Source of the DNA: Cytophagales bacterium
GTDB taxonomy: Bacteria > Bacteroidota > Bacteroidia > Cytophagales > Thermoflexibacteraceae
Reading direction: 5' to 3'
DNA length: 39,571 nt
NCBI GenBank assembly: GCA_947457925.1
Contig: CANGYA010000013.1
Location: 1-39,571 of the forward strand
How positions within the stretch are numbered: the first letter of the stretch is position 1; every line of letters begins with the position of its first letter. A program made the position numbers and the translations under genes. Below are positions 29,987 through 39,571 of the stretch, one piece after another. A model generated the notes under the pieces. The model did no database searches. It was not told the DNA's origin and worked only from the letters and a program-made list of their open reading frames with translations.

Positions 29987-32170
29987 ATGAAGTCATTTTA
30001 TTACGCCTTTATTTGCTTGTTGGCTCTGACCATTACGCCATTACAAGCTCAAAAGCAACTTACTCTCGAAGACATTTATAAATTTGGTGTCTTTCGCGAA
30101 AAATCCGTTCAGGGGATTAATTGGACAAAAAACGGGCAATTTTACACCTCTTTAGAGCAAAACGGAGTGGTCAAATACGACATTACTACGGGCAAAGCTG
30201 TGGAAACTGTCGTAGATTTTGGGACATTGAACCCACGCATAGACGTAGATGATTATGCGTTTAGTAGTGATGAAAAAAAACTATTGTTCACCACTAACAC
30301 CGAGCCGATTTACCGCCGTTCTTTTCGGGCAGATTATTATGTGTATGACCTCACAAGCAAGACTTTACAACCTTTGGCAGCAGAAGGTCGCCAATCGTAT
30401 GCTACTTTTTCGCCAGACGGCAGCAAAGTGGCTTTTGTAAGAGAGAATAACTTATTTGTAGTAGATTTGGCAAATAACAATGCCCTTACACAAGTTACTA
30501 ATGATGGCAAATTTAACCACATCATCAACGGCAGTACGGATTGGGTGTATGAAGAAGAATTAGGTTTTGCACAAGCCTTTTTTTGGTCGCCAGACAGCAA
30601 AAAAATTGCCTTCTACAAATTTGATGAAAGCAATGTGAAAGAATACAATATGCAGTATTGGGACGAAAAACAGTTGTACCCTGTGGATTACCGTTTCAAG
30701 TACCCCAAAGCTGGTGAAGCTAACTCAGTAGTCAATATTTTTGTCTATCAAATAGAGGGCAAACAAACCGTAAAAATGGACACTGGCACAGAAACAGACA
30801 TTTATATTCCAAGAGTAAAATGGACTTTAGACAGCAATGTCTTGTCTATCCGCCGCATGAACCGCCTACAAAACCGTTTGGAAATTCTGCACAATAACGC
30901 CACCACTGGAGCAGCTACCGTAATTTGGAAAGAAGAAGACAATGCCTATGTAGATGTGGAATATGCAGACGACTTGATTTATTTGAAAGATGGCAAACAG
31001 TTTATTTTGACTTCTGAAAAAGATGGCTACAAACATTTTTATTTATACAACATCAATGGCAGTTTGGTAAGCCAAATTACTTCGGGAAATTGGGAAGTAG
31101 CTGATTTTGTGGGTATTAACGAAAATACAAAACCTGCCACTATTTATTTTACTTCTACCGAAGATTCACCTTTGGACAGACATTTTTATAGCATTGGCTT
31201 AGATGGCAAAAAGAAAACAAAATTGACTACGCAAAAAGGCACGCATACCGTAAATATGAGTCCAGATTTTAGTCATTACATTTTGTTTCATACCGCAGCC
31301 GACAGCCCAACAACGGTAAGTATTTTCAAAACCGCCAAAAACACATTGGTTACAGTAAGAGAAGACAACAAAGCCTTGCGTGAACAAATTGCAGCCTACC
31401 AACTTCAACCCAAAGAGTTTTTCAATTTCCAGACTACAGACAAGCAAACTTTGTACGGCTATTGGATTAAGCCCAAAAACTTTGATGCGACGAAAAAGTA
31501 CCCTGTCATTATGTATGTGTACGGAGGTCCCGCCTCACAATCTGTAAAAAATTCTTGGGCAGATGGACACTTGTATTTCCACCATTATTTGGCACAACAA
31601 GGCTTCCTCGTTGCGTGTGTGGACAACAGAGGCACAACCGCCAGAGGTGCAACTTTCAAAAAATCTACCTATGCTAATTTGGGTAAATACGAAGTACAAG
31701 ACCAAATAGCAGCAGCTAATTTTTTGGGCAGTCAGGCGTATGTGGATAAAAGCAGAATAGGCATTTGGGGCTGGAGCTACGGCGGTTACATGACTTCTTT
31801 GTCTATGATGCTGGGGGCAGATGTGTGGAAAGCAGGCGTGGCAGTAGCCCCAGTAACTACTTGGCGTTTGTACGATACGATTTACACCGAAAGATTTTTG
31901 AAGAAACCTTCGGAAAATGCAGGAGGATACGACCTCAATTCGCCTATCATGCACGCCGACAAACTCAAAGGCAATTTCTTTTTGATACATGGCACAGGCG
32001 ACGACAATGTGCATTTCCAAAATGCCGTTTACCTACAAAATGCCCTTATCAAAGCCAATAAACAGTTTGAGTCTTTCTATTATCCTAACCGCAATCATGG
32101 TATTTATGGAGGCAACACTCGTCTGCATTTGTACCAAATGATGTTTGATTTTTGGAAGAGAAAATTGTAA
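29987..32170 (+). CDS. Dipeptidyl peptidase IV-type serine peptidase (S9B)
   Basis: 727 residues, exported (signal peptide MKSFYYAFICLLALTITPLQA). It removes dipeptides from peptides with Pro or Ala at position 2. N-terminal eight-bladed propeller to about residue 475, containing the DWVYEEELGF segment whose Glu pair binds the substrate N-terminus. C-terminal alpha/beta-hydrolase domain with nucleophile Ser597 in GIWGWSYGGYMT, the Asp of GTGDDNVHF (residues 672-673) and His704 in RNHGIYGG. Catalytic triad complete. Works in the periplasm or at the surface, feeding dipeptides to transporters such as the POT protein at 21709. Monocistronic; TATTTTTG at 29952-29959 is a possible -7 box. Confidence 0.95.
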   Translation: MKSFYYAFICLLALTITPLQAQKQLTLEDIYKFGVFREKSVQGINWTKNGQFYTSLEQNGVVKYDITTGKAVETVVDFGTLNPRIDVDDYAFSSDEKKLLFTTNTEPIYRRSFRADYYVYDLTSKTLQPLAAEGRQSYATFSPDGSKVAFVRENNLFVVDLANNNALTQVTNDGKFNHIINGSTDWVYEEELGFAQAFFWSPDSKKIAFYKFDESNVKEYNMQYWDEKQLYPVDYRFKYPKAGEANSVVNIFVYQIEGKQTVKMDTGTETDIYIPRVKWTLDSNVLSIRRMNRLQNRLEILHNNATTGAATVIWKEEDNAYVDVEYADDLIYLKDGKQFILTSEKDGYKHFYLYNINGSLVSQITSGNWEVADFVGINENTKPATIYFTSTEDSPLDRHFYSIGLDGKKKTKLTTQKGTHTVNMSPDFSHYILFHTAADSPTTVSIFKTAKNTLVTVREDNKALREQIAAYQLQPKEFFNFQTTDKQTLYGYWIKPKNFDATKKYPVIMYVYGGPASQSVKNSWADGHLYFHHYLAQQGFLVACVDNRGTTARGATFKKSTYANLGKYEVQDQIAAANFLGSQAYVDKSRIGIWGWSYGGYMTSLSMMLGADVWKAGVAVAPVTTWRLYDTIYTERFLKKPSENAGGYDLNSPIMHADKLKGNFFLIHGTGDDNVHFQNAVYLQNALIKANKQFESFYYPNRNHGIYGGNTRLHLYQMMFDFWKRKL

Positions 32171-32250
32171 GGGTTTAATAATGCCACTTACTTCATAATC
32201 AAGCATTAACAGTTCCCAAAGAATTGTTAATAAGTAATTGGAAAAATAAA

Positions 32251-32317
32251 TGTGCCACAGACTTTAGTCTGTGCGTCTTTGATTATCAAGAGATTACAGA
32301 CTAAAGTCTGTGGTACA
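32251..32317. repeat. Variant copy of the ACTTTAGTC inverted-repeat family, copy 3
   Basis: TGTGCCACAGACTTTAGTC (32251-32269) plus TGTG, and on the right ACAG...ACTAAAGTCTGTGGTACA (32296-32317), complementary except one base. Shares the core CAGACTTTAGTCTGTG with copies at 23265 and 24526 but has CCAC where they have GCAT, and the outer ATTATTAA boxes are lost. In the 288-base gap between convergent peptidase and prfA genes. Confidence 0.75.
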
Positions 32318-32402
32318 ATATTATCAATTAATTAGTTACTCTTACTTACCAATTAATAATTGTGCATTAGCACTTACTTGTTCTTTGGATAGATATAGTG
32401 TT

Positions 32403-32437
32403 AAACGGTGTAATCTTTTGAAAAGATTACACCGTTT
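32403..32437. repeat. 35-bp palindrome, third copy of the GTAATCTTTT family
   Basis: Arms of 17 bases (32403-32419 and 32421-32437) are perfect around G at 32420; the left arm is AAACGGTGTAATCTTTT. It lies 22 bases past the prfA stop (minus) and 233 bases past the peptidase stop, so it could end both. Confidence 0.85.
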
Positions 32438-32458
32438 CTAATTATGTAACATTATTTA

Positions 32459-33532
32459 TTAGTTTTCTCCGCCAGCCTGCAATCTTTCTGCATTTTCTGC
32501 CAAACGCAACTGTTCTATAAACTCACCAATATCTCCGTCCATTACGGCATTCAGGTTGTAAACCGTATAGTTGATACGGTGGTCTGTAACCCTACTTTGT
32601 GGGTAGTTGTAAGTACGAATCTTGTCCGACCTGTCGCCACTGCCTACCATACTTTTGCGTTGTTGCGTAATTTCGGCTTGTTGTTTTTGCAACTCAATTT
32701 CATACAATTTAGCACGTAACATACGCATTGCATTTTCTCTGTTGCCCAACTGTGTCCGTTCTGTTTGGCACATCACGACCAAACCCGTGGGTCTGTGTGT
32801 CAAAATCACTTTGGTTTCTACCTTGTTTACGTTCTGTCCACCAGCACCACCACTTCTTGATGTTTGTAGGTCTATATCACTTTCACGCAAATCCACGTCA
32901 ATTTCTTCTACTTCTGGCAATACCGCCACAGACGCAGCCGAAGTATGCACACGACCTTGTGTTTCGGTAGCAGGTACACGTTGTACACGGTGTACGCCAG
33001 CCTCATACTTCATTTTTCCGTACACATCTTCGCCTGTGATAGACAAAATGACTTCTTTGTACCCACCAGCTGTCCCCTCTGTTTCTTCCATCACCGACAT
33101 TTTCCAGCCTAATCTTTCTGCATAACGGAGGTACATACGGTACAAATCTCCTGCAAATAGCGAAGCCTCGTCGCCACCTGTCCCAGCACGAATTTCCAAG
33201 ATGATATCTTTGCTGTCGTTGGGGTCTTTTGGAATCAACAAGTCTTTCAAAATGGTTTCCAATTCCTCTTTTTTAGGCTCTAACTCCTCCAATTCAGCCT
33301 TTGCCATGTCCCTAAAATCCGCATCTTTTTCGGTTTTCAGTACCTCTTTGGCATTGTCGATATTACTTAAAATATTGCTGTATTGGTGATAATAGCCCAC
33401 TATTTTCCCCAAATCTTTATATTCTTTGTTCAGTTTCGCATAACTTTTCATATTAGCCATTTGTTCGGGCTGTGCGATAAGTTCTGCTACTTCGTCGTAT
33501 CTTTGCTTTATAGCTTCTAATTTTTCTATCAT
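32459..33532 (-). CDS. prfA: Peptide chain release factor 1
   Basis: 357 residues from ATG at 33532; the frame is open to 33589 but the start [20 protein letters not shown] is the normal RF1 N-terminus. RF1 reads UAA and UAG and releases the peptide. Seen: [20 protein letters not shown] with the PAT tripeptide that recognises the stop codon (P-A/V-T marks RF1, RF2 has SPF), and [16 protein letters not shown] with the GGQ loop that enters the peptidyl transferase centre. The usual length is about 360. Because RF1 decodes UAG, it is the factor expected to terminate at the in-frame TAG in the broken SpoIIE gene nearby. 66 bases separate it from the upstream GH3 gene; possibly co-transcribed. Confidence 0.97.
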
Positions 33533-33598
33533 ACCAAAAATTTTTCCGCAAAGGTAAGTAATTCTTTGGAAATGAAGGCATTTTTTCAAAGATGTATT

Positions 33599-35122
33599 TT
33601 AACGCATCACCGCTAAAACCTCCTCTATATACTCCCGACTATTGGATAAACGAGGGACTTTGTTTTGACCACCCAATTTATTTTTGCGTTTGAGCCATTC
33701 AAAAAATGTTCCTTTGGGGGCTGCGTGTACCAACGGAGCTACTAAGGCAATATCTTGGTATCTCTTGGCATCATAGTCCGCATTGAGTTGGCGGAGGGTT
33801 TCGTCGAGAATTTGGGTAAAGGTGGTTAGGTTTTCGGGTTGTTTTTCAAACTCTATTACCCATTCGTGTCCGCCTCTGTTGTAGCTGCCGTTTTTGTCCG
33901 AACTTAAGTAGATAGGGGCAGCCGTAAAGTTGTTGATAATAGCATTCGTAGCTTCGCAAGCCGTTGTAATAGCTATTTCGGCATTTTCTACCATGACCTC
34001 CTCGCCAAAAGCATTGATAAAGTGCTTGGTACGTCCCGCAATTTTGATGCGGTAAGGCGAAATGCTGGTAAATTTTACGGTATCGCCAATATTATATCGC
34101 CAAAGTCCTGCGTTGGTGCTTATCAAAACGGCATACGTTTTCCCCAATTCTACTTGGTCTAAACCTATGGCTTTGGGCTGTTCTTTGTCCCATTCTTCTA
34201 CGGGCAAAAACTCAAAATACACACCGTAATCCAATAATAACAGCATTTCATCACTGTTTTTCTGGTCTTGCAAGCCAAAAAAACCTTCGGAAGCATTGTA
34301 AACCTCCAAATAGTGCATTTTGTCCGAAGGAATTAGCTGTTTGAAAAGTTGGCGGTAAGGGTGAAACGCCACTGCCCCATGAAAAAATACTTCCAAATTT
34401 TCCCACACTTCACAAATATTACTTTTGCCTGTAATGTCCAAAATTCTTTGCAACAAAACCACCGTCCATGTAGGTACGCCTGCCATACTTGTTACATTCT
34501 GGCGGAGGGTTTCTTGTGCCATTGCCTCTATTTTTTCTTCCCATTTGTCCATCAGGGCAGTTTTCAGGCTGGGAGTTCTTAAATATTCCGCCCAAAAAGG
34601 TAAATTTTTCATCAAAACTGCCGAAACATCTCCGTAGTAGCTGTTGGGGTTCAGGTGATTGGGGCTAAGACTACCGCCAATAGACAAAGTTTTCCCTGCC
34701 AAAACCTTTGTATCAGGGTAATTGTCTATGTAAAGGGCTAACATATCTTGCCCACCTCTGTAATTACACTCCTTTAAGGCTTCGTTGGACACAGGAATAA
34801 ACTTACTACGGGCATTGGTCGTACCTGAAGACTTCGAAAATTTGTCGATGTGTGAAGCCCATAATACATTTTGTTCTCCGCGTAGCATACGTTCTATGTA
34901 TGGATACAACTGTTCATACGCCGATACAGGCACTCTTTGGCGGAACTGTTCGGGGTTTTTGATACTACTGTAGTCGTACAACTTGCCCCACTCCGTATTT
35001 TTGGCACTTTGAATAAGCCCTTGAAACTGTTGGGCTTGTACGTCATGCGGAAACAATCTGAATTGGTCTATTCTTCGCATTCTTTGGCGAAAAAACAGAT
35101 TGGCAAGTGTGGTAAATATCAT
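33599..35122 (-). CDS. GH3-family acyl-acid-amido synthetase-like protein
   Basis: 507 residues. GH3 enzymes adenylate a carboxylic acid and join it to an amino acid; the plant members act on auxin and jasmonate, while bacterial substrates are mostly unknown. Family features: DYSSIKNPEQFRQRVPVSAY near the start, ATP-binding KFSKSSGTTNARSKFIPVS, the mid-region LEVYNASEGFFGLQDQ, ISTNAGLWRYNIGDTVKFTS, and IKIAGRTKHFINAFGEEVM at the hinge. It lacks a signal peptide and is cytoplasmic. Full-length. Common in Bacteroidota chromosomes; function in this group is not settled. Upstream of prfA on the same strand and preceded by the CCTATAAGG hairpin. Confidence 0.93.
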   Translation of the reverse strand: MIFTTLANLFFRQRMRRIDQFRLFPHDVQAQQFQGLIQSAKNTEWGKLYDYSSIKNPEQFRQRVPVSAYEQLYPYIERMLRGEQNVLWASHIDKFSKSSGTTNARSKFIPVSNEALKECNYRGGQDMLALYIDNYPDTKVLAGKTLSIGGSLSPNHLNPNSYYGDVSAVLMKNLPFWAEYLRTPSLKTALMDKWEEKIEAMAQETLRQNVTSMAGVPTWTVVLLQRILDITGKSNICEVWENLEVFFHGAVAFHPYRQLFKQLIPSDKMHYLEVYNASEGFFGLQDQKNSDEMLLLLDYGVYFEFLPVEEWDKEQPKAIGLDQVELGKTYAVLISTNAGLWRYNIGDTVKFTSISPYRIKIAGRTKHFINAFGEEVMVENAEIAITTACEATNAIINNFTAAPIYLSSDKNGSYNRGGHEWVIEFEKQPENLTTFTQILDETLRQLNADYDAKRYQDIALVAPLVHAAPKGTFFEWLKRKNKLGGQNKVPRLSNSREYIEEVLAVMR

Positions 35123-35143
35123 GGCGAAATGTCTGTATAGTTG

Positions 35144-35176
35144 AAACCTATAAGGTTTTTTAAACCTTATAGGTTT
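35144..35176. repeat. CCTATAAGG hairpin, copy 2
   Basis: AAACCTATAAGGTTT (35144-35158) and AAACCTTATAGGTTT (35162-35176), perfect, loop TTT. Near-copy of 9478-9507. Between the SpoIIE fragment's stop and the GH3 start on the minus strand; a likely terminator for the upstream gene. Confidence 0.75.
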
Positions 35177-35271
35177 TAGTTATCTTCAAATGTTACAAAT
35201 TACTATAATTTCTACCCTATCACACAATTTTAAGCTACAAAATTGTAGTTTTTCATTTAACCAATTCTTTA

Positions 35272-36249
35272 CTATGCAATGCGTATGCCTATGAGTGTTA
35301 TATCATCTGTTTGCGGTTCGTTGGCTTCAACTTGCCATTCTGTAATGGTTTTTACAACTATTTTTTCTTGTGTCGCCACGTCTTGATGAGCAATAGACTG
35401 TAACAATTCACGTAATTGCTTTTTCATAAATCTGCGGTTGTCTTTGCCCCCAAATTGGTCTTGGTAGCCGTCTGATGCCAAATAAATCATAGTTGGTTTA
35501 TCTATCATTAATTCATGTTTGGTATAAGCAAAGTCTTTTTCAATACTCAAACCTATCGGCATTTTATCGGCTTTTATTTCATTAAACTCTTGATTTTGAA
35601 TATAATATAAAGGAAACATAGCTCCTGCATACTCTATTTTTACTTCTTTCACGTCTGTTAATTGCAGTGCCGTTTTAGGTGCTTTCAGTATTCGTAGCAC
35701 CGCCAAATCCATACTGTCCCTTACCTTTCCGTCATTGGCAGCCAAAATTTTAGTCAATAATACAGGCACTTGGTTAATAATGGTATTAGGGGCAGTAATG
35801 CCTTGTTCTTCAATGATTTGGTTCAAAATAGTGTTGCCAATCATTGTCATAAAAGCCCCCGAAACGCCGTGTCCTGTGCAGTCCACTGCTATCAAAATGG
35901 TGCAGTTGGGCAGTTCTTTGAACCAATAAAAATCACCACTTACAATATCACGAGGTTTGTAAAACACAAAACTTTCTGGAAACACCTCCCTAATTTGCGT
36001 AATAGTAGGCAAAATGGCTTTCTGAATACGCAGAGCATAGTTGATAGAAGCCACAATATCGTCATTCTTCTTCTCAATAATCAATTTTTGTTCTTGTACT
36101 TGCCCCAAAGTAGCCGATAAACTTTCATTCATTTCGACCAATACATCAGAGTTTTGCCTTAATTCTTCTTCGGAGGCTTGTAATTCAGCATTTTTTTCCG
36201 CAATTTCTATTTGTTGTTTTCTTAGTAATTTGTTTTGTTGGTGGTTTCG
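35272..36249 (-). pseudogene. C-terminal half of a TPR-SpoIIE phosphatase, cut off by in-frame TAG
   Basis: Continues the upstream TPR gene in the same reading frame after a single TAG at 36250-36252. The 36 codons between that stop and the first usable start (TTG at 36141, or ATG at 36132) read as ordinary coiled coil (RNHQQNKLLRKQQIEIAEKN), so the two halves were one gene of about 870 codons. Domains here: rest of the coiled coil, then SpoIIE phosphatase with VFYKPRDIVSGDFYWF, DCTGHGVSGAFMTMIG and IYLASDGYQDQFGGKD. Metal-binding Asp residues are present, so the phosphatase itself is undamaged. Without readthrough or a restart it is not made as part of the sensor. A restart at 36141/36132 would give a soluble phosphatase of about 286-290 residues. 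Confidence 0.8.
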
Positions 36250-37881
36250 CTATGCAGCCACCGCCACAATGAGTACAATCAAAAAAGCTGCTATGATAAT
36301 CCAATACGCCAACTGTTCACGATTTTTTCCCTCTTTTAGCTCCAAATCTTGGACTCTTTTGTTGGTTTCTAAGAGTTGATTACGGTTTTTCTCTAACTCC
36401 AATGCCTTTTTCTGCTCCTCTTGTTGAGCTTGTTTCTTTTCTATTTCAAGGCTTTGTAATTGTTTTTGTTGTTCTAAACTTGCAATTTCTTGGTTTTTTC
36501 TTTCTGTTTCTAGTCGTTGTTGGGCAAGTTTTAGTTGCTGTTCAGTAGCTTCTTTAGCTAATTGTTCATTTTTTAACTTAACAGCTTGTAAGTTTTTTTC
36601 TTGTTGCAAAATTTGCAAAGTTTGTTCTTGCTTTTGTGCCTCCAAAGCCATTTGTTTCAAAGTTAAATTTTGTTTTTCTTTTTCTGCTAAACCTAATAAC
36701 AAATCATTTTCAGTTTGTTGTACGTTTGCTTGTGCTTTTTGGGTTTCTTCTTTCTGTTTTGCTATTTGTTGTGATAATAATTGACGATATTCCTCCGATT
36801 TTTTGAAGTTTTCTTGTGCTTGCTTAAAATCACTTTGTTGCGTATAAGCATTATTCAAAACCAAATAAGCATCAGCCAAAGCCTTGTAAGCATTGATAGG
36901 CGTAGCCACTTCAATAGCTTTTTCAGCTAATGCAATCGCATTAAAACTGTGTTTACGAAGCAACTCATTTCCTGCCAATAAATTATAAGCCGTTGCAAGG
37001 TCTTCTGGATTTTTGCTTTTACTGCTCAAATCTATTGCCTTGTTATAGTAAGTTTCGGCGGCTAGAAAATTACCCAACATAGAATAAGTAACCGCCATAT
37101 TATTGATAACAGCAAGATTTTCTTGATTTAGCTTACTAAATTCCTCAATAGCTTTGTTCAGATAAAGGGCAGAATTTTTTAAATCTCCTTGTTGGCGGAA
37201 CAAATAGCCTGTATTTTGATAGGCAAATGCTAAATTTTCGGTGTTTTTTGCGTCTTTGCTGTTCGGATTACTTGCCTTGACTTTTTCGTATTCAGCACTC
37301 AATTTTTGGGCATAATCTAAGGCTGCAACATACTTTTTTTGTGCCGAACAAAGACTAAGCAAATTAGACAAAGCCAAAGTTTCGGTAGCAAGGTCTTTAT
37401 TTTGCAAAGCTATTTGCAGTAAGTCAGCATAATTTTTTTCGGCATTCGCATAATTTTTTTGCAAAGCATAACATTCTGCTATTTCCTTTGTCCATTCTGT
37501 TGGCTTGGAAATTTGGTAAAAAGGTTGTGCTTTTTGCAAATGCACAATACTTTGTGTATAAGCCTTTTGATTTTTATAGATTTTAGCTAACAAAAAATGT
37601 ATAGTTGCTGCTTTTTTATCATTTTCAGGTTCATTTTTCAGATTTTCAGCACTCTTTAAGGCAGTCAAAGTATAGGGCAAGGCAGTAGCGTAGTCGTTTT
37701 GCTGCACATAAAAAACAGCTAATTGATGGGCAATATCAGCCGTTTGGCTGTTATTACCTTGTTTTTCGGCTTCGGCTAAGGCTTGTTTCCATTGGGTAGG
37801 GTTGTTTTGTTGTGCCAGCCCTTTGGAAATTGTGATGAAACAAAGCCCGAAAAGTAAGAGATATGGTAAGAGTTTTTTCAT
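36250..37881 (-). CDS. TPR sensor half of a split SpoIIE phosphatase gene
   Basis: 543 residues ending at TAG (36250-36252). Signal peptide MKKLLPYLLLFGLCFITISKG, then about seven TPR units (LAVFYVQQNDYATALPYTLT, LAFAYQNTGYLFRQQGDLKN and similar) to about 375. A long Gln/Lys/Glu coiled coil (about 375-520) and a membrane helix (LAYWIIIAAFLIVLIVAVAA) follow, right at the end. Family members continue past this helix into a cytoplasmic coiled coil and output domain; here that part follows in frame after the stop (35272-36249). So this product would be a periplasmic TPR protein anchored by a C-terminal helix with no output. Alternatives: recent nonsense mutation, sequencing error, or programmed readthrough. 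Confidence 0.85.
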   Translation of the reverse strand: MKKLLPYLLLFGLCFITISKGLAQQNNPTQWKQALAEAEKQGNNSQTADIAHQLAVFYVQQNDYATALPYTLTALKSAENLKNEPENDKKAATIHFLLAKIYKNQKAYTQSIVHLQKAQPFYQISKPTEWTKEIAECYALQKNYANAEKNYADLLQIALQNKDLATETLALSNLLSLCSAQKKYVAALDYAQKLSAEYEKVKASNPNSKDAKNTENLAFAYQNTGYLFRQQGDLKNSALYLNKAIEEFSKLNQENLAVINNMAVTYSMLGNFLAAETYYNKAIDLSSKSKNPEDLATAYNLLAGNELLRKHSFNAIALAEKAIEVATPINAYKALADAYLVLNNAYTQQSDFKQAQENFKKSEEYRQLLSQQIAKQKEETQKAQANVQQTENDLLLGLAEKEKQNLTLKQMALEAQKQEQTLQILQQEKNLQAVKLKNEQLAKEATEQQLKLAQQRLETERKNQEIASLEQQKQLQSLEIEKKQAQQEEQKKALELEKNRNQLLETNKRVQDLELKEGKNREQLAYWIIIAAFLIVLIVAVAA

Positions 37882-37887
37882 TTTAAG

Positions 37888-38757
37888 TTACGTAATTGTA
37901 AGCTGTAACTGCACCCCAAAAGTATTTTTCACTGTCTTTTTATTGTCAAGATTAAAGTTTGTAATAAAAAGTTCTTTTCCTAATTGACGAGATGCTCCAT
38001 TTGAATTTTCTGCTTGATTACGCATTCCATACATTAAATCCCATTCCACAATATTTGCAAACGAGAATAAATCCTTTATATATTCACAATTATCATAAGT
38101 AATCAACCATTTATGATTACAATTTTTCATTACTTCCGCAAATCTTTTGTGGTCAAAACCTTTATGTAACTTACCTTTTTTTCCATAAAGGGCAGATTTT
38201 GTTGCAGAAAAGTACGGTGGGTCAAGAAAAATAAATACATTTTCGCCTGTTGTGCCTACAACTTCTTCATAGTCTAAATTTGTAATTGTTGTGTTCTTTA
38301 CTACGTTTTTTAAAAGCTCTAATCGTTGGATACTACTTTCTGTAAACCGTTTTTGAAAGGCTTGCTCCGAAAACCCGCCTGCTTCGGTTGTACCAGAAAA
38401 AGTAATTCGATTAAAAACGAAAAAGGCACTTGCTTTTTTCAAATCGTCAAAGCTATTTATATTTTCGCCCAAGAATTTGTGTAATGCTTTACCATTTTCA
38501 AATTCTTTTTTCCAGACATTTACTTGATTGATAAGACCTTGTAAATCTTTTTGTGAATATTCCCAAAATTTGTATAACTCAAAATACAAGTCATTTATCC
38601 AATATTTTCTATGAGGATAAAGTTGTTTCAATGCTAAAAACACTGAACCGCCACCCACAAAAGGCTCTCTAAATTCTTCAAAATGAGGGATTAAGGGCAA
38701 AATTTGCTCTAATGCCTTACTTTTTCCGCCAGGGTATCTTAATGGGCTTTTTATCAT
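37888..38757 (-). CDS. D12-class (Dam-like) DNA adenine methyltransferase
   Basis: 289 residues, alpha-class N6-adenine methyltransferase. The start MIKSPLRYPGGKSKALEQIL is the typical D12 N-terminus, followed by motif I EPFVGGGSVFLAL (31-43) and motif IV FLDPPYFSA (177-185), with KHKWLITYD-like motif VI/VII (HKWLITYDNCEYI) and MRNQ...GKELFITNF near the end. Target unknown; Dam itself acts at GATC, but members of this class have various sites. It lies four bases after a short gene with a PD-(D/E)XK-like motif, which suggests a type II system whose nuclease may be reduced. The pair is A+T rich compared with the core genes. Confidence 0.92.
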   Translation of the reverse strand: MIKSPLRYPGGKSKALEQILPLIPHFEEFREPFVGGGSVFLALKQLYPHRKYWINDLYFELYKFWEYSQKDLQGLINQVNVWKKEFENGKALHKFLGENINSFDDLKKASAFFVFNRITFSGTTEAGGFSEQAFQKRFTESSIQRLELLKNVVKNTTITNLDYEEVVGTTGENVFIFLDPPYFSATKSALYGKKGKLHKGFDHKRFAEVMKNCNHKWLITYDNCEYIKDLFSFANIVEWDLMYGMRNQAENSNGASRQLGKELFITNFNLDNKKTVKNTFGVQLQLTIT

Positions 38758-38761
38758 TGTT

Positions 38762-39262
38762 TTATCTTTCTTTCAAAATTACCATAAATCCATTTGTTTT
38801 AGCTTCTTCAAATAAGGTTTTCAGATAATTTTGTTGTGCCTGCTTTAATTTATTTTCCTTACAAAAATGTTCAAATTCTGTTTCATTTGCCACTGAATTG
38901 ATTACTGATTTGAGTTTTGAAGAACTCAAAAGTAAAACAGGAATTGCATTTTTGGGTATGTTATTTACTACTGTATTTTTCAAATTGGTGTATAAAATCA
39001 TTTTTAGTAAGCCGTCTTTTATATCACTATTATTTGGTAAAATACTTGAATTTTTGGCTATACTCCCAGCGTGTTTTCCTTCTATCAAATAAATTTTATC
39101 ATTTTCTAATTTGACTTCATCTACAGTTAAAAAATATTCGCCACCTAAAAAGTTCGTGATAGTAATTTTTGCCTTTGTCAAAGTTGCTAAGACTTCTTTA
39201 GGTTGTATGGTTACAAATTCCCTACTCTGTGCTTCTTTTGCTTTTTTGCGTGAAAACTCCAT
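38762..39262 (-). CDS. Short PD-(D/E)XK-like protein, probable (truncated?) restriction endonuclease
   Basis: 166 residues from ATG at 39262. A nuclease-like core is visible: YFLTVDEV with Asp48, then KIYLIEGKHAG with Glu61 and Lys63, i.e. D-x12-E-x-K spaced as in PD-(D/E)XK enzymes. It directly precedes a D12 methyltransferase (four-base gap), as endonucleases often do. No family recognised. Oddity: the frame stays open for 23 sense codons above the ATG, up to TAA at 39332-39334, and that stretch (RDYGSLLHNFQEVISKS) reads like protein but has no ATG/GTG/TTG start. So the true N-terminus may be lost, or translation may begin at a rare start. Could be an inactive remnant or an orphan small nuclease. 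Confidence 0.55.
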   Translation of the reverse strand: MEFSRKKAKEAQSREFVTIQPKEVLATLTKAKITITNFLGGEYFLTVDEVKLENDKIYLIEGKHAGSIAKNSSILPNNSDIKDGLLKMILYTNLKNTVVNNIPKNAIPVLLLSSSKLKSVINSVANETEFEHFCKENKLKQAQQNYLKTLFEEAKTNGFMVILKER

Positions 39263-39571
39263 AAATTCTTTTGTACTTTTACTAATGACTTCTTGAAAAT
39301 TGTGTAGTAAACTACCGTAATCCCTTAAACTTTATGTATTGATTTTCAATAAGTTAGGTTCTTACTACCTATGTATCTGTGATAAACCTTTTTTTCAAAA
39401 GTACCCTAAAAATACGTAAAAACAGCCTATTGTAAGGTTTTTTACTATTTTTTCCCTAATACTTTAAAAAAAGTTTATCAAAGTAGTAAGGTGTACGAAT
39501 TTCAAAGAACTAAGCAAAAGAAAAAATAGTGCAATTTTTTTAAAGACTTTCTAAGCCCTTTTCAGACTTAG
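39263..39571. other. Intergenic region with a loose inverted repeat, no gene seen
   Basis: 309 bases up to the window edge. Apart from the 23 open codons described for the preceding gene, no coding sequence is apparent. CTTACTAC (39361-39368) and GATAAAC (39381-39387), followed by a T run and AAAGTA, recur inverted at 39461-39490 (GTAGTAAG 39483-39490, GTTTATC 39473-39479). The copies differ by a nine-base spacer. Purpose unknown: could be paired promoter-like sites or worn element ends. Confidence 0.4.

Follow-up and report, generated by a model that had tools for sequence, protein, structure and literature searches.

A lone in-frame TAG between the sensor and phosphatase halves of a TPR-SpoIIE gene is most probably a recent nonsense mutation

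Introduction

Does a single stop codon that lies exactly between the sensor and the output domain of a signaling gene mark a regulatory switch, or an ordinary loss? The question is raised by a gene on the minus strand of a 39,571-nucleotide stretch of a draft Cytophagales genome (hereafter the window), in which a tetratricopeptide repeat (TPR) half and a SpoIIE half share one frame and are separated by one TAG. An earlier sequence-only reading of this locus offered three options, namely a very recent mutation, a sequencing error, or a readthrough switch that yields sensor-only and full-length forms. Here we weigh these options by comparison with relatives, with paralogues of the same genome (G000), and with the translation machinery that the genome encodes.

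Results

Layout of the interrupted gene

Translation of the minus strand from 35272 to 37881 gives 543 residues, then the TAG at 36250-36252, and then another 325 residues up to the terminal TAG; no further stop or frameshift is present in this interval. The positions that had been proposed for the TAG and for both halves are therefore right. The features of the gene are:

36253..37881, minus strand: N-terminal half, 543 aa, with a probable signal peptide, TPR repeats, a long coiled coil and a membrane helix (TPR by Pfam; signal, coil and helix by eye)
36253..36312, minus strand: hydrophobic stretch LAYWIIIAAFLIVLIVAVAA, the presumed membrane helix, abutting the stop (translation, read by eye)
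36250..36252, minus strand: in-frame TAG; the aligned codon of the same-genus ortholog is TGG (Trp) (translation, alignment)
36130..36141, minus strand: nearest ATG/GTG/TTG re-initiation candidates past the stop, TTG at 36139-36141 and ATG at 36130-36132, 108 and 117 nt downstream
35272..36249, minus strand: C-terminal half, 325 aa, with a linker coiled coil and a SpoIIE (PP2C-type) phosphatase domain (translation, Pfam)
35278-35904, minus strand: SpoIIE domain (profile match)
35272-35274, minus strand: the gene's own terminal TAG (translation)

Both domains of the interrupted gene score above their Pfam cut-offs. The sensor half has matches to Pfam TPR families, with TPR_12 at 1.5e-21 and 76.8 bits (cut-off 30.1), and the second half matches SpoIIE (PF07228) at 1.3e-16 and 61.5 bits (cut-off 25) over residues 116-324 of 325. 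In the window copy, sensor and output are thus not in one uninterrupted frame, since the TAG at 36250-36252 divides them, and it does so at the sensor/output boundary directly past the hydrophobic stretch, as the sequence-only reading had observed. When stops flanked on each side by 80 or more open codons were ranked by two-sided coding character in 839,271 bases (40 stretches of G000 plus the window), this stop ranked 4th of 76.

The interval 37888-39262 of the window, the contig of which ends at 39571, holds a gene for a D12-class type II DNA methyltransferase and, beside it, a 166-aa frame that matches a type II restriction enzyme model C-terminally only (profile positions 210-351 of 371).

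An intact ortholog carries a tryptophan codon at the site

We next searched 59 genomes (the genome itself and 58 relatives, with the best 16 candidates scored per genome) for homologues of the interrupted gene. The sole same-genus genome, G001, has an intact full-length ortholog of 866 aa with 74% identity and no stop, which is located on contig JAAFKA010000010.1 of a Cytophagales metagenome bin (identical ORF translation). As this ortholog is one uninterrupted frame that aligns end to end with the interrupted gene, the two halves in the window are one gene, and the proposal of a gene split by a single in-frame TAG with no frameshift is borne out by both the translation and the ortholog. The TPR plus SpoIIE (PF07228) sensor phosphatases of the order share with the window gene the domain order signal-TPR-coil-TM-coil-SpoIIE, which is uninterrupted in the sister genome, whereas the window copy is broken by the TAG. 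The motifs GDFYW, DCTGHG, SDG and TDD, which we take to be the acidic metal-site motifs of the SpoIIE phosphatase, are identical in the window gene and the G001 ortholog; a more distant homologue, in genome G006, has TDG and IDD in place of SDG and TDD, with the Asp kept.

The context of the site is well matched, reading VAVAL-W-RNHKQNK in G001 and VAVAA-stop-RNHQQNK in the window, and the Trp codon in G001 is TGG, so that one G-to-A substitution is enough to account for the TAG. That one base change suffices had been anticipated, although the ancestral codons then guessed (CAG, or TAC/TAT) do not fit the TGG of the ortholog. The direction of change was presumably from TGG to TAG, as judged from one ortholog because one same-genus genome was compared; the G006 homologue has Arg at this position. 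The G001 ortholog likewise ends in TAG.

The genes that flank the sensor gene in 31000-39571 match other G001 contigs, and synteny is therefore of no help. No plasmid records matching the TPR half were found. In G001, the intact sensor gene directly follows PtuA/PtuB-like (Septu) defense genes (L061:3994-5991).

The stop is not shared by homologues

If the stop had been retained for a function, a TAG might be looked for at the same place in homologues, a check that the sequence-only reading had called for. We therefore aligned relatives and paralogues by tBLASTn with the stop entered as X. Among relatives, 41 loci (29 best loci, one per genome, plus 12 flagged ones) gave 46 alignments (one duplicate dropped); 40 of these cover the site and none has a stop there, with 39 showing a residue and one a gap. 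The same is true for paralogues, where 54 loci of the genome itself gave 48 alignments (nine duplicates dropped, three loci without a match) and the 27 that cover the site show 25 residues, two gaps and no stop. Overall, the 67 covering alignments, a set that leaves out SpoIIE loci collected later, comprise 64 residues, three gaps and no stop, and with TGG in the ortholog the check came out negative.

Recurrent stops in homologues were also considered as a candidate pattern and rejected. At least 13 matches had been flagged for stops, and upon re-examination none had an internal stop inside its alignment; the flags fit terminal stops, which were reached as the read-through query ended in Q. 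In all, 16 loci were re-examined (13 flagged plus three others), and the sole internal stop was a TGA on contig C8, in a locus taken from the SpoIIE profile search, which is described below.

Age of the stop and selection on both halves

Identity to the sister gene is 425 of 543 aligned residues upstream of the stop and 217 of 321 downstream. The NG86 dN/dS values are 0.141/1.243 upstream and 0.244/1.769 downstream, with dS near saturation. When unique amino-acid changes were polarized with G006, the upstream half had 19 on the window branch versus 23 on the sister branch, and the downstream half had 19 versus 13; no contrast reaches significance (binomial p 0.38 for the downstream half, Fisher p 0.25). 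A simple model that assumes no constraint since the stop arose places the unconstrained period of the downstream half at ~7% of the window branch, with an upper bound of ~31%. The SpoIIE domain scores 61.5 bits relative to 71.5 in the sister, inside the range of the genome's other SpoIIE matches, and the translation contains no second lesion downstream of the stop. These data fit a young stop, and they also fit a downstream half that continues to be made. As in a pseudogene, the reading frame is disabled.

Reading of UAG by the cell

Release factor 1, which we take to be the factor that reads UAG, is encoded in the window itself:

32459..33589, minus strand: prfA, peptide chain release factor 1 (TIGR00019, 500 bits, cut-off 423)

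The prfA product contains the PAT motif, and prfB, the gene for release factor 2, is on contig C124. No CUA anticodon was found among 42 tRNA matches (ARAGORN; 150 of 324 candidates scored in the draft genome); the three of these that ARAGORN left uncalled gave none either in an intron-permitting rerun and with Rfam models. As no tRNA-Ala was reported among the matches, this survey is incomplete and a tRNA may possibly have been missed by it. Terminal stops of 411 sampled frames longer than 250 codons comprise 300 TAA, 84 TAG and 27 TGA, so TAG is not avoided as a terminator, either in these long frames or in the sensor gene itself. A TAG-recoded genome or suppressor strain is disfavored by the presence of both prfA and prfB, by the lack of a CUA tRNA in the survey and by this normal use of TAG. 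Regarding a stimulatory RNA structure, none stands out in the one 121-nt stretch at the stop that was folded, with pseudoknots left aside, as 195 of its 200 shuffled versions reach an equal or better fold (z +1.6).

These results bear on the possibility of a functional split, in which UAG suppression would supply full-length protein in addition to a sensor-only product, or re-initiation at the TTG or ATG 108-117 nt downstream would supply a separate soluble phosphatase. The position of the stop exactly between sensor and output speaks for such a split, as do the existence of in-frame starts past it and the intact downstream half with its low dN/dS, which a translated half would likewise show. 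Belinky et al. (2021, PMC7918605) further argue that in-frame stops are widespread in bacterial genes and that purifying selection acts on many of them. However, the stop is absent from the ortholog and from all 67 covering alignments, release factor 1 is present and no CUA tRNA was found, the RNA around the stop has no better fold than its shuffled versions, the first ATG/GTG/TTG is more than 100 nt away, and the same paper calls most such stops short-lived. We thus consider a functional split or readthrough to be quite improbable, and the readthrough switch of the sequence-only reading found no support. Among the papers listed by literature searches, none describes a readthrough switch in TPR/SpoIIE sensor genes in its title or abstract opening.

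A second way to restore the full-length protein would be A-to-I editing of the mRNA, by which UAG would become UIG and be read as Trp, regaining exactly the residue of the sister. The known bacterial target of TadA has UACG in a hairpin loop, whereas the sequence here is ATAGCG and folding gave no significant local structure. We know of no case of such a stop being edited in bacteria, and we give this explanation next to no credence.

Other isolated stops in the genome

The expansion of SpoIIE domains in this genome is striking, with 83 matches in 4.86 Mb, some of which are gene pieces. We followed 84 distinct SpoIIE frames in-frame past each bounding stop, excluding sides where an open frame ran to the end of a stretch. 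In addition to the window gene, this revealed one clear and one probable case of an isolated stop among the 83 matches. The clear case is an in-frame TGA inside the phosphatase domain of a second SpoIIE sensor gene (L075:1932-1934, contig C8). The probable case is a TAA between a frame that ends in PAS and a GAF/PAS/SpoIIE frame (L129:4319-4321, contig C46). The evidence for it is this arrangement, in which the first Met of the downstream frame is its residue 51, together with a single paralogue alignment that spans the junction at 24% identity. Neither gene has a close G001 ortholog, as the best matches, at 35-38% and 46% identity for the C8 and C46 genes, respectively, are distant paralogues. 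Of 15 listed SpoIIE entries with an open same-frame neighbor, four belong to the three cases above, one (L135) has 52 aa downstream of its terminal TAA with a weak paralogue match, and the rest have none.

Outside of the SpoIIE genes, the 839-kb scan, in which seven of the 76 candidates were looked at closely, yielded one clear case, a TAA that splits a TonB-dependent receptor between plug and beta-barrel (L144:772-774, contig C3). The SpoIIE search and the scan are unequal in sensitivity, and we therefore claim no enrichment of stops in SpoIIE genes. Three different stop codons occur at unrelated places, a pattern that resembles sporadic point lesions, either genuine or introduced by the assembly, and not a recoding system.

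That such lesions might be assembly-made leads to the main rival explanation, in which the TAG stems from an error in sequencing or in the consensus, or is present in only some members of a mixed population, and most cells keep a sense codon. In its favor, the source is a draft assembly (329 contigs) and the TAG is one base apart from the sister codon; the other isolated in-frame stops of the assembly would also suit a low background of errors. Against this, the change is a substitution outside a homopolymer, and a lone substitution of that kind is an uncommon type of consensus error. We consider error or a mixed allele to be unlikely, and favor a real and recent mutation.

tRNA-like genes interrupted in the anticodon arm

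The tRNA screen also revealed tRNA-like genes whose anticodon arm contains an insert:

L116:120-238 (contig C115) and L118:139-257 (contig C47): complete copies in G000
L268 (contig C125): partial copy in G000
L262-L275 and L299-L310: copies in other genomes

A pattern taken from the insert occurs in five of 291 genomes of the order, with no instance of the reversed control pattern among the matches listed. A model built from five copies, the conserved inserts of which span 46-62 nt, has 10 covarying pairs out of 31 (eight in the tRNA arms and two in the insert); two pairs of the insert are each broken in one copy. When this model was searched class-wide (395 genomes, best eight candidates scored per genome), there were at least nine long matches (112-127 nt) among those listed, of which G000 has two and six other genomes together have seven; the other listed matches are ~75 nt, like ordinary tRNAs.

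Of 31 long copies tested (one 73-nt match was left out), 28 could be scored, and once the insert is taken out, 18 of the 31 regain a five-pair anticodon stem together with U33, relative to about 3% in a shuffled-middle control on the 28 scorable copies; the scoring scheme is our own, and the cut positions were optimized in the same way for the data and for the control. Of the 18 restored copies, 14 have the 5' strand of the stem split by the insert, and the other four have the insert after the stem. The inserts measure 43-131 nt. Oddly, ATG is the anticodon in three of the 18 restored copies.

A RING-protein gene lies downstream on the same strand at six of 13 distinct places (14 loci). This protein is related to NF041916, with three proteins scoring 50-54 bits, far below the 600-bit cut-off, and a search with it matched 13 of 59 genomes. 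Long model matches occur in 10 of 12 RING loci, with up to six per locus, where L305 includes a copy used in the model; the RING locus of G000 itself (contig C138) is one of the two without them. Rfam 15 reports both complete G000 copies only as tRNA, and among the papers listed by searches that mostly did not reach subscription journals, none describes such genes in its title or abstract opening. They may be tRNAs with small introns or tRNA-derived regulatory RNAs. Separately, at L121:50-330 (contig C228) a strong hairpin occurs together with a partial match to tmRNA (26.3 bits, below the gathering score of 47), and these are followed by a stretch like a tRNA 5' half, the first bases of which are complementary by eye to the preceding acceptor end.

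Discussion

The explanation that we favor, and consider highly probable, is an ordinary one: a single gene of a redundant sensor-phosphatase family has recently acquired a nonsense mutation. Of the three options that the sequence-only reading had offered, a very recent mutation fits best, given the intact TGG ortholog and the absence of the stop from homologues. The ancestral gene would have coded for a sensor with a periplasmic TPR region, a transmembrane helix and a cytoplasmic SpoIIE phosphatase, as predicted for its topology. The Trp codon located where the membrane helix ends on the cytoplasmic side would then have become TAG in this lineage through one G-to-A substitution. Translation would be expected to end at 36250, leaving a membrane-anchored TPR sensor that lacks an output domain. 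The phosphatase half would be untranslated, or translated at a low level from a start located over 100 nt past the stop, as the distance of 108 and 117 nt to the first in-frame TTG and ATG suggests that re-initiation is probably weak. The net effect would presumably be a loss of function. That the downstream half still looks intact is explained by the lesion being recent, and the lesion is probably tolerated because there are ~80 other SpoIIE-domain genes in the genome.

The case fits an already known kind, the isolated in-frame stop in a bacterial gene. Belinky et al. (2021, PMC7918605) report that in-frame stops are widespread in bacterial genes, with dN/dS <1, and are mostly short-lived. 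Like their cases, the window gene is conserved and, apart from one in-frame stop, intact, with dN/dS <1. It differs in that their large-scale set required stops common to orthologues of at least two species, whereas the sole same-genus ortholog here has a sense codon.

It is also conceivable that expression of the split gene has been tuned in this lineage, such that the membrane-anchored TPR sensor would serve as a decoy or titrating subunit beside full-length or free phosphatase made at a low level by readthrough or re-initiation, which we regard as very improbable. Were translation past the stop to occur, this would be a signaling protein in which the ratio of sensor to output is set by termination. 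The finding as it stands has little weight, being one broken copy among many paralogues, and serves as a caution against taking a lone in-frame stop for a regulatory switch.
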